Below are positions 20,395 to 23,900 of a stretch of 42,764 nt of DNA, in pieces (the first letter of the stretch is position 1; the number at the start of each line of letters is the position of its first letter). This DNA comes from Candidatus Roizmanbacteria bacterium GW2011_GWC1_37_12. GTDB taxonomy: Bacteria; Patescibacteriota; Microgenomatia; UBA1406; GWC2-37-13. The position numbers were made by a program, and so were the translations under genes. The notes under the pieces are model-generated. The model had not been told where the DNA came from, did not search any database, and saw nothing but the letters and a program-made list of their open reading frames with translations. The stretch covers positions 1 through 42,764 of the forward strand of contig LBST01000011.1 of assembly GCA_000991135.1 (NCBI GenBank), read 5' to 3'.

Positions 20395-21108
20395 ATGTCT
20401 GGTCATTCCAAGTGGGCGAATATAAAAAGAAAAAAAGAAGCCAATGACAAAGTAAAGGGCAATGTTTTTAGTAAATTGAGCCGTCTAATCACGCTTGCCG
20501 TGGTTGAGGGCGGGGGAGTTTCCGATCCTGATAATAATGTTAAATTGAGACTGGCAATCGAAAAGGCGCATTCTTCCAATATGCCCAAGGAAAATATCAA
20601 GAGAGCGATAGAAAAAGGCATAGGTCCTGATAAAAGCCAAATCAAAGAGATAGTCTATGAAGGTTTTGGCCCATACGGCATTTCTTTAATGATTTTGACA
20701 GCAACTGACAATCCAAATAGAACTTTGACCGAAATTAGAAACATTCTTGATAAACACCAAGGGAAACTAGGCAGCTCTGGATCGGTTTCCTATCAGTTTC
20801 AAAGATGTGGTCTGATTATTTTTGACAAGTCCAGCATTAATCAAGATCAAATTCTTGAAGTTAGCGATCAACTCAAGGCCTTTGATATAGCTGAAACAGA
20901 TGATAGATTTTATCTTTATTTTCCTTATGAACATCTCGGACATATAAAAAATCTTCTCAAAGACTTTAAGTATGAATCAGTTTCGGTTGATTTTAAGCCT
21001 CAAATGATAATGGTGCTTGAGGACGACGAAAAAATTGAAAAAATATCTGAATTAATAGATTTATTAGAAGCCTCAGATGATATTCAAAAAGTATTTACAA
21101 ATCTTTGA
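20395..21108 (+). CDS. yebC: YebC/PmpR-family protein
   Basis: A YebC/PmpR (TACO1) family protein; members have been described as transcriptional regulators and, more recently, as helping ribosomes through difficult peptide motifs. The start at 20395 gives the family N-terminus MSGHSKWANIKRKKEAND. Conserved blocks include NMPKENIKRAIEKGIG, YEGFGPYGISLMI and the GSSGSVSYQF loop. Length 237 aa is typical. A TATAAT at 20382-20387 ends 7 nt before this ATG, which supports the start over an upstream in-frame ATG. It overlaps the next gene by 32 nt. No ruvC follows. Confidence 0.95.
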   Translation: MSGHSKWANIKRKKEANDKVKGNVFSKLSRLITLAVVEGGGVSDPDNNVKLRLAIEKAHSSNMPKENIKRAIEKGIGPDKSQIKEIVYEGFGPYGISLMILTATDNPNRTLTEIRNILDKHQGKLGSSGSVSYQFQRCGLIIFDKSSINQDQILEVSDQLKAFDIAETDDRFYLYFPYEHLGHIKNLLKDFKYESVSVDFKPQMIMVLEDDEKIEKISELIDLLEASDDIQKVFTNL

Positions 21109-21889
21109 GAAAAAAGCGATCAAGATCGAAAAGAGGTTGAGATTAGTAATCTCTGTCTTTATTTTGACTTCATTATTAGTTTTTTCCACATTTTTTTATT
21201 TTGACAAAGCCCCAATCTTTATCCCGGTGCTTTTAATCGCGAGTTTTCTATTGGCCTATTTTTCTCTTCTTGAAGGGATAGAGAAGATGGCTTGGTTTGG
21301 GCTTTTTTTTATGCCGGTTGCTTTGACGATTTTTTTCTATACGTTCTATTTTCTATTTCCGGGCCGGTGGTTGACCAGAATTCCTTTTATTATCATCTAC
21401 GGAGTTTCTTTATACGCAGTTTTACTGAGCGCAAATATCTTTAACGTCGGAGTAGAGAAGAATCTCCAGCTTTATCGAGCTGCCTTTTCCATAAACTTTT
21501 TCTACCAGGCCTTTTTGGCTTTTATTATTTTTAATATTCTATTTTCTTTTAAAGGAATATTTTTGATAAATATGGTGATAGTTGGGGGAATAGGTTTTTT
21601 GCTAGCTCTACAACTTTTTTGGACGATAAAACTTGATAAACAAATAGAGAAAGAAGTTGTCAATTACGCCTTGTTTTTGTCTATTTTGTTGGGTGAATTA
21701 GCGGTTTTGGTTAGTTTTATACCTTTGAGAGGGACGATAGCGGCGCTATTTTTAACGGCCTCTTATTATAGCTTGGGAGGAGTTATTTACAACTTTATCG
21801 ATCAGAAGCTTTTTAAAGAAACAATTCGCGAGTATGTCTTTGTCTGGATCTTCGTATTGATAATTACTGTGCTTTCAATTAGTTGGTAA
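21077..21889 (+). CDS. Polytopic membrane protein of unknown function
   Basis: 270 aa with about eight hydrophobic helices and short loops (for example VISVFILTSLLVFSTFFYF, FIPVLLIASFLLAYFSLL, IREYVFVWIFVLIITVLSISW). No catalytic or transport motif is recognisable. The loop sequence FPGRWLTRIPF and a cytosolic segment between helices (KLDKQIEKEV) are the only charged regions. It overlaps the yebC end by 32 nt in a different frame, so expression is probably coupled to yebC. Confidence 0.75.
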   Translation: MIFKKYLQIFEKKAIKIEKRLRLVISVFILTSLLVFSTFFYFDKAPIFIPVLLIASFLLAYFSLLEGIEKMAWFGLFFMPVALTIFFYTFYFLFPGRWLTRIPFIIIYGVSLYAVLLSANIFNVGVEKNLQLYRAAFSINFFYQAFLAFIIFNILFSFKGIFLINMVIVGGIGFLLALQLFWTIKLDKQIEKEVVNYALFLSILLGELAVLVSFIPLRGTIAALFLTASYYSLGGVIYNFIDQKLFKETIREYVFVWIFVLIITVLSISW

Positions 21890-22225
21890 TTCTAATTAAA
21901 AAAGCTCGATACCGAAATTTTTTATCACAGTGGGGCCCCTACCCCAAAAGTGAAAAAAATTTGGTCTTCTCGCTTTTTTCTGAAAAGAAGTCTTTCGCTT
22001 TCTGGACACCTCCGAGGTGGTAAGAGATTATCTTTATAATCTTTTATTATTTTGTATCAAGGTAAAATAAAATATAAAGAAAAATAGCTTTGGGTTCCTC
22101 GGAGGTGAAAATAAGGATAGACAAGGTAGAGAATAGAGGAGTGGTACGCCCTACGGACGTGAATAAATAACCTATAGTAAATATTTAGTACGAACGTTAA
22201 AAAAACTATAGGATTAAATTTAAAT

Positions 22226-22256
22226 AAGGACAGAACCTGTTCCAGGTTCTGTCCTT
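22226..22256. repeat. 31-nt hairpin element, AAGGACAG family, copy 1
   Basis: AAGGACAGAACCTG (22226-22239) and CAGGTTCTGTCCTT (22243-22256) form a perfect 14-bp stem with a TTC loop. The flanks (TAAATT...ATAAGG before, AAAAAACAT after) are shared with the copy at 22396-22426. Confidence 0.85.
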
Positions 22257-22395
22257 GAAAAAACATATTTCGAGGCTAAAATGAAAGAATAGACTATCAC
22301 TATACTCCGAGTAGTTACGGGTACTTTGTGGATAAGAATTTGTATTTAGCCTCAAAAATGAATATTTAGATTGATATTATGCTCTAAATTAGTAT

Positions 22396-22426
22396 AAGGA
22401 CAGTTCCTCGTAGAGGAACTGTCCTT
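22396..22426. repeat. 31-nt hairpin element, AAGGACAG family, copy 2
   Basis: AAGGACAGTTCCTC (22396-22409) and GAGGAACTGTCCTT (22413-22426) form a perfect 14-bp stem with a GTA loop. The outer 8 bp equal those of copy 1. The inner 6 bp differ on both arms in a compensating way, so pairing is preserved although sequence is not. Confidence 0.85.
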
Positions 22427-22988
22427 AAAAAACATCAGGATTTAGCCTCGAAAGTGATGATTTGGAGCAATAATATACTCTAAAATTACTCAATAAAGAA
22501 ACAACATAAGAGAAGTGCTTATTATTCTAAATTAATTCACTAATTGACAGATTAAAGGACTAACGGATTAAAGGATTATTTATACCTTATAGAGAGAAGA
22601 CGGGATCTTTGTTCTCCAAAGAATTTATATAAAAAAGATCAAAATCTAAAAGTTAGCAATTGTTGATATCAATGCTAGGAGAAATGAACACATATAACGT
22701 CGTAAATTATATCTTTTACGATGTTAGCCTTCTCTGACAGAAGAGGAGTGACAGATTGTATTGACAATCTAAATTAAAATTATTCATTAATAATTATTTA
22801 TTAATTATTTTAATTAATCATTAATTATTCCCTATTATTCTCTCTTGGGGTTGTTGGGGGTTTTAAGGATATTTGGGAAGGTCTCCCCGACCCTTTTTAT
22901 CATATTTGGATTGTTAGGGTAAGATAATTAACTTCGCTTCCCTATTTTTTTCATTGGTAGGTGAGTAGGCCTGTTATAATAATTACTA

Positions 22989-23900
22989 ATGGATATTCTT
23001 ACAGTAACCAATCTGACGAAGAAATTCGGCAAGTTCACTGCGGTAAATAATATTTCCTTTTCCCTTAGGGAGGGTGAAATATTGGGTTTGCTTGGTCCAA
23101 ACGGCGCTGGCAAGACGACAACAATAGATATACTTTTGGGCGTAACAAAACCAACCAGCGGAAAAATAACTATATTTAATCTTCCGTTCGAAGAAAACAG
23201 AGTCCAAATATTAAAGCAAATGAACTTTTCCGCCGCTTACATTAATTTACCTTGGAGTCTTAAAGTTTGGGAAAACCTTTATACTTTTGCCCGTCTTTAT
23301 GAAGTCGATGGTTTTAAAGAAAAGGTACAAAAGCTAATGAAAGAATTTAAGTTATATAATCTGAAAGATAAGCCGACTGATAGTTTATCTTCCGGTCAAC
23401 TGACGAGACTATATCTGTGTAAGGCTTTTATTAATAATCCACGCTTATTATTGCTAGACGAACCAACGGCTTTTTTAGACCCTGATGTGGCTGATTTAAT
23501 GAGAAAATATATTTTGAAAGAAGTAAAAACCAAAAAAACATCAATCCTCTTTACATCTCATAACATGGCGGAGGTGACAGAGATATGCGACCGGGTGATT
23601 TTCTTAAATCGCGGGAAAATAATCGCTAAAGATACTCCGATAAACTTGGCAATGAGAATTAAATTTTGCCGAGTCAGGTTGTTTTTTGACGAAAAGAAAA
23701 AAAACGCAGAAGAACTATTAAGAAACTATAAGTATATTTTTTCTTTAGAAGGAAAAGAAATCGTAGTTGAAACCGAAGAAGAAAAAGTCGGCCAACTTTT
23801 AGGAAGACTGTCCTTAGCTAAATTAAAATATTCTCAAATAACTATTGAAAAACCTACGCTTGAAGATTTTTTTATAAAAATTGCTAGAGAAAAAATATGA
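22989..23900 (+). CDS. ABC transporter ATP-binding protein (ABC-2 type exporter), copy 1
   Basis: ATPase subunit of an ABC-2 exporter. Walker A is GPNGAGKTT (about residues 36-44), signature SLSSGQLTRL, Walker B LLLLDEPTAFLD, and the H-loop TSHNMAEV; all are intact. After the nucleotide-binding domain comes an about 80-residue C-terminal extension ending EKPTLEDFFIKIAREKI, as in drug and polysaccharide exporters of this class. It overlaps the permease gene by 4 nt. Its first 108 nt are almost identical to those of the ATPase at 25073, while the rest has diverged strongly. TATAAT at 22975-22980 lies 8 nt before the ATG. Confidence 0.94.
   Translation: MDILTVTNLTKKFGKFTAVNNISFSLREGEILGLLGPNGAGKTTTIDILLGVTKPTSGKITIFNLPFEENRVQILKQMNFSAAYINLPWSLKVWENLYTFARLYEVDGFKEKVQKLMKEFKLYNLKDKPTDSLSSGQLTRLYLCKAFINNPRLLLLDEPTAFLDPDVADLMRKYILKEVKTKKTSILFTSHNMAEVTEICDRVIFLNRGKIIAKDTPINLAMRIKFCRVRLFFDEKKKNAEELLRNYKYIFSLEGKEIVVETEEEKVGQLLGRLSLAKLKYSQITIEKPTLEDFFIKIAREKI

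Follow-up and report, generated by a model that had tools for sequence, protein, structure and literature searches.

Two intergenic hairpins in a Candidatus Roizmanbacteria genome as probable REP-type elements of a RAYT transposase system

Results

Two perfect hairpins lie close together between genes in the window, the whole stretch of 42,764 nucleotides that was analysed, which is contig 11 of the 18-contig, 0.99-Mb genome of Candidatus Roizmanbacteria bacterium GW2011_GWC1_37_12 (G000). Among named sequences, those nearest to its YebC protein belong to Candidatus Roizmanbacteria and further Microgenomates bins. Both hairpins are very probably REP-type non-autonomous palindromic elements of a RAYT (TnpA-REP, Y1/HUH) system. 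Hairpins of this kind are dispersed over the genome, conserve their palindrome with covarying arms, border transposase genes, and are present or absent at orthologous sites. Judged from these sequence patterns, the likeliest agents of the family's movement are the hairpin-cutting transposase genes that its members flank.

The hairpins occupy positions 22226-22256 and 22396-22426 of the forward strand, as the initial annotation had placed them, and each consists of a perfect 14-bp stem and a 3-nt loop. Hairpin 1 reads AAGGACAG-AACCTG-TTC-CAGGTT-CTGTCCTT and carries the AACC arm type. Hairpin 2 carries the TTCC arm type, and its stem can be extended to 15 bp (22395-22427), reading (T)AAGGACAG-TTCCTC-GTA-GAGGAA-CTGTCCTT(A). 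These are the only perfect stems of at least 11 bp (loops of 2 to 8 nt) in the whole window, where a 14-bp/3-nt hairpin is expected by chance about 0.0005 times. Both fall within an intergenic gap of 1.1 kb, with a DUF5656 gene (21077-21889) on one side and an ABC transporter gene (22989-23900) on the other. Six inner positions had been thought to differ between the two stems, but AACCTG and TTCCTC have CCT in common, so that only stem pairs 9 (A-T/T-A), 10 (A-T/T-A) and 14 (G-C/C-G) differ, each matched on the opposite arm; two loop bases also differ, and 8 of the 31 positions differ overall. The similarity of the flanks holds on the downstream side, where the A-rich tail AAAAAACAT adjoins hairpin 1 (22258-22266, forward strand) and hairpin 2 (22427-22435, forward strand) with a 1-nt offset, and similar tails are found at several other copies. 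On the upstream side it is partly host sequence: TAAATT at hairpin 2 is the end of a conserved TCTAAATT word that is also found in hairpin-free relatives.

Two shorter sequences in the same gap, the palindrome CACCTCCGAGGTG (22007-22019, no strand assigned) and CCTCGGAGGTG (22095-22107), resemble the CCACCTCGGAGGTGG hairpins that flank a different Y1 gene (C10:17007). Therefore, a second REP family may be present beside the window hairpins, to judge by this likeness.

A genome-wide pattern survey showed that the genome holds far more than two copies. The pattern AAGGACAG-N15-CTGTCCTT was found three times, exact AAGGACAG...CTGTCCTT hairpins with a variable core 11 times in 0.99 Mb, and relaxed GGACAG-N3-30-CTGTCC hairpins 23 times, while the reversed control pattern gave 0 matches. 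The copies are mostly intergenic, sited at gene ends, and can be separated by their flanks into two sets. Type A, AAGGACAG-NNCC...GGNN-CTGTCCTT, has about a dozen copies, including both window hairpins; type B, which has the classical GTAG foot, reads GTAG-GGACAGG...CCTGTCC. GTAG (GT[AG]G) is absent from the 5' foot of the AAGGACAG hairpins and present in the other set of the same genome. This GTAG-foot set, GTAGGGACAGGTC...GACCTGTCC, was observed on contigs C1, C3 and C6 (loci L134, L135, L136, L141 and L147), and no cognate transposase gene was found beside it at these loci. A scan of viral contigs for AAGGACAG...CTGTCCTT returned at least 120 stretches with hairpins of varied length, a result that shows only that the arm word is common.

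The inner arms of the type-A copies covary. Among 12 copies the inner four pairs are AACC in five, TTCC in four and TCCC in two, and the remaining copy is mismatched; thus 11 of the 12 are fully paired in the inner 4 bp, with three arm types. The arms of one copy pair with each other at 11.92 of 12 positions, compared with 10.71 for arms combined from different copies (p=0.00005, a value that overstates independence because the sequences are related). The AACC type of hairpin 1 also occurs on C1, C5, C7 and C14, and the TTCC type of hairpin 2 on C2, C8 and C15 and at RAYT fragments on C2 and C18. Loops vary within one arm type.

A search for a REP-type nuclease gene elsewhere in the genome, as the initial annotation had suggested, identified about nine Y1_Tnp (PF01797) genes, at least five of which bear their own palindrome at both ends; examples other than CCACCTCGGAGGTGG are GGCAACCTCCGAGGTTGC at C1:21447 and GTCACCC...GGGTGAC at C6:52737. 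One intact Y1 gene (C10:25342-26043) sits between TCCC-type (GGGACAGTCCC-type) arms. Its product scores above the PF01797 cut-off and has an HFH motif at residues 95-97 and a conserved Tyr 119. It reached 41 bits against the NCBIfam REP_Tyr_transpos equivalog model NF047646 (cut-off 80), and of the genome's Y1 proteins eight were scored and none reached that cut-off; we therefore term these proteins RAYT-like. No solved structure related by sequence to the C10 protein was found. On C18, the 3' fragment of a sister RAYT gene (L126, 1270-1857) is followed by AGGAACTGTCC...GGACAGTTCCT (TTCC type), and on C2 a 5' RAYT fragment (L138, 1-240) is preceded by AAGGACAGTTCCTAAAGGAACTGTCCTT (TTCC type) about 25 nt before the ATG. 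Both fragments are broken off at about residue 45 of the intact protein, close to contig ends, so they may be the halves of one RAYT gene that was interrupted, possibly by a repeat. No AACC-type hairpin was found at the edge of a transposase gene in G000. A conserved TTTTGTAGNNTATANNC...GACA block was observed upstream of the hairpin and start codon of RAYT genes (L289, L291, L292 and L138), and it is probably a RAYT promoter or operator.

A search of 72 genomes of the family gave homologues of the C10 protein in 41, and each of the closer RAYT genes, where readable, has a palindrome upstream of its start codon. The congener G011 has a RAYT homologue that is 63% identical; it is preceded by AAGGACAGAACCTGAAAGGTTCTGTCCTT (AACC type) at a distance of 18 nt and followed by a matching palindrome, and 31 such hairpins, nearly all of the AACC type, are dispersed over the G011 genome. 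The RAYT genes of G008, G002, G014, G031 and G086 have different hairpins that are equally palindromic, such as the upstream AGGGTCAGACCCT...AGGGTCTGACCCT in G008, AGGGTCGGACCCTCGACGAGGGTCCGACCCT in G014 and AGGGTCTGTCCCG...CGGGACAGACCCT in G031. For seven RAYT genes of relatives, own arms pair at 11.6 of 12 positions and swapped arms at 7.6 (p=0.0003, which again overstates independence, the sequences being related). In G009 the RAYT gene, also 63% identical, has an internal stop, and that genome has 0 exact copies of the AAGGACAG...CTGTCCTT hairpin. Altogether, flanking of a Y1 gene by hairpin copies was seen at the C10, C18 and C2 loci, in G011 and in five further species.

Orthologous sites differ in whether they carry a hairpin. 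The hairpin at C2:18883 separates a stop codon from the following start; in the same place G010, G004 and G001 have only about 20 nt, and G011 has its own AACC-type element. The hairpin at C15:17204 is absent in G004, where the genes nearly abut, and in G010, which has a short AT-rich spacer. Both window hairpins are missing from the orthologous region in the relatives examined. Such patterns are what a mobile palindrome would leave, and the site junctions are not clean enough to fix the exact ends of the element. At the C2:18883 junction, G009 (C51, L392) has an unrelated CGTCATTCCGAGCGAAGCGAGGAATCT repeat, so that three different palindromes are seen at one site.

Alignment of the region downstream of DUF5656 over 35 relatives revealed that both hairpins are hosted, in variable linkers, by a conserved non-coding element of about 830 bp (22125-22955, forward strand) that is common to the Roizmanbacteria family and present in about 50 relatives. 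Its words include TTTAGCCTCAAAA and TTTAGA...TCTAAA, which are repeated, a CCTATAGT...ACTATAGG pair, TGTGGATAAC, and CTTCCCTATTTTTTT near the end; a palindrome, AACGTCGTAAATTRTATCTTTTACGAYGTT, is near-invariant, as is the inverted repeat AACGTCGTAAA...TTTACGAYGTT, and the end of the element is rich in T. The near-invariant palindrome was found once per genome in 28 of 281 genomes of the class, one of them outside the order, and lies downstream of DUF5656 at the loci checked. The linker of hairpin 2 (22385-22440) is 52 nt long, against about 50 nt in many hairpin-free relatives, as if it had been replaced and not lengthened. The DUF5656 match in G011 (C2:94857-95683) is spread over different frames and interrupted by many stops, which sets it apart from that of almost all the other relatives. 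The element carries a DnaA-box-like TGTGGATAA and AT-rich DNA, but a role as chromosome origin was rejected on its position in two single-contig genomes: the element is at 0.678 Mb in G026, where dnaA and the skew minimum map near 1.04 Mb, and at 0.904 Mb in G065, where the skew minimum is near 0.1 Mb. A terminus was rejected as well; AACGTCGTAAA...TTTACGAYGTT is dif-like, but the skew maxima, near 0.5-0.6 Mb in G026 and 0.65 Mb in G065, lie away from the element.

The location of the hairpins within a non-coding element conserved over the whole family raises the question of whether they are stems of one large structured RNA of about 830 nt, covarying as an RNA needs its stems. RNAalifold predicts helices in the element, among them a closing helix (22128-22144/22934-22950), and folding z-scores lie mostly between -2 and -7. 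These scores, however, are similar on both strands (10 of 12 sequences), covariation over all columns gave no helix pattern, none of the predicted helices passed the test of own versus swapped arms, and Rfam (gathering and E-value thresholds) gave no match in the window or in 20 relatives. The arm-swap tests thus spoke against a structured RNA as the nature of the element; moreover, the same linkers occur in relatives without hairpins and the same hairpins at many unrelated loci, and it is very unlikely that the two hairpins owe their covariation to such an RNA. A literature search on large RNAs of Roizmanbacteria or CPR found nothing relevant. The element itself may represent either a large RNA or a DNA locus. 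In a further reading, which seems to us very improbable, it would be a large non-coding RNA (or multi-palindrome DNA locus) of Roizmanbacteria that has so far escaped description, and REP hairpins would have replaced its variable peripheral stems in this species; if this were true, a mobile palindrome would now be part of a cellular RNA or DNA structure.

Transcription terminators that resemble one another by chance or local constraint would also be strong stems in intergenic DNA, and several copies do stand directly after stop codons. But on the forward strand the window hairpins have A-runs, not T-runs, after the stem, and on the reverse strand the T-run precedes it; moreover, terminators do not need an 8-bp outer arm that is common to dispersed copies and to transposase gene borders. 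Such an origin is extremely unlikely, although a secondary terminating effect of some copies is possible. We doubt just as strongly that recombination or gene conversion exchanges the inner core between hairpins as a cassette. Such an exchange would fit the recurrence of only three arm types on a constant outer arm, and the linker of hairpin 2 matches in length that of many relatives, but lineage descent suffices, because RAYT gene borders also carry the arm types as whole units and copies of one arm type have different loops.

Discussion

Against these alternatives, we favor a RAYT-REP system as the source of both hairpins. We infer cleavage, transposition, and which enzyme moves which arm type. 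Enzymes of the IS200/IS605 and RAYT families are described in the consulted part of PMC6006769 as Y1 enzymes that bind a single-stranded hairpin and cut at its foot. Here, the folded hairpin in single-stranded DNA, such as the lagging-strand template, is most likely what the transposase recognises; the enzyme would cut at the hairpin foot and insert the element elsewhere, mainly in intergenic DNA. Selection for the fold would preserve the pairing of the two arms and let the inner arm drift or diversify in sequence, leaving an outer arm, AAGGACAG, that is common to the family and an inner arm that would exist in AACC, TTCC and TCCC lineages. Hairpin 1 would then belong to the AACC lineage and hairpin 2 to the TTCC lineage.

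Because the copies, the arm types and the RAYT borders recur across the genome and in sister species, the compensatory difference between the two hairpins is best placed between REP lineages; the window carries one copy of each of two lineages, so that many paired mutations in place are not needed. The argument of the initial annotation against gradual mutation is thus weaker than it was stated: the paired changes are real, but they affect just three pairs, and each of the two arm types recurs as a lineage of its own. Neither outcome that the initial annotation had named as refuting, a total of just two copies or inner arms without covariation, was observed. It had also proposed that palindromicity itself is maintained, either by a mobility enzyme or by an RNA structure. 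The Y1 genes that are bordered by the same kind of hairpin, here and in sister species, give good support to the former, and an RNA role of the hairpins found no support. The palindrome is probably kept by its use by a single-strand transposase.

The system is a RAYT-REP system of known kind, without the GTAG foot, in a CPR genome, and it is ordinary in mechanism. Its significance is that a RAYT-REP system whose stem cores are perfectly paired and specific to lineages is thereby placed in reduced CPR genomes, where 1 Mb contains about nine Y1 genes. The cognate pairs of the sister species (AACC, TTCC, TCCC and AGGGTC types) form a ready set for finding out what the enzyme reads within the hairpin. 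The conserved host element downstream of DUF5656, whose core palindrome is single-copy in the genomes searched, is a separate lead.

The closest known system is REP with TnpA-REP/RAYT (the REPtron), as described in the parts of PMC2817692 and PMC6006769 consulted. In both systems, short palindromes are scattered over intergenic DNA, Y1/HUH genes have hairpins of their own type at their flanks, and one genome has several hairpin types with separate transposases. Unlike the REPtron in those parts, the AAGGACAG hairpins lack a GTAG foot, their copies number about 10-30 and not 100 or more, and the host belongs to the CPR, which the same parts do not mention in connection with the REPtron. Subclass 2.6 and class 3 of TnpA-REP, in the portion of PMC6006769 consulted, have, at the borders of their transposase genes, atypical hairpins that lack GT[AG]G and are also present elsewhere in the genome, as here, although the CnGA foot of class 3 was not seen here. 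REPINs, according to the sections of PMC3116915 consulted, commonly show compensatory changes on the two hairpin sides and are presumed to be moved by a RAYT; they are REP pairs with a spacer, whereas the hairpins here are mostly single, with some inside-out pairs beside RAYT genes. Of the GTAG- and CGTC-tagged palindromes in the part of PMC3733652 consulted, the window hairpins have neither tag, but GTAG is present in the second set of this genome (GTAGGGACAGGTC...GACCTGTCC) and a CGTC-type repeat lies at the G009 junction.
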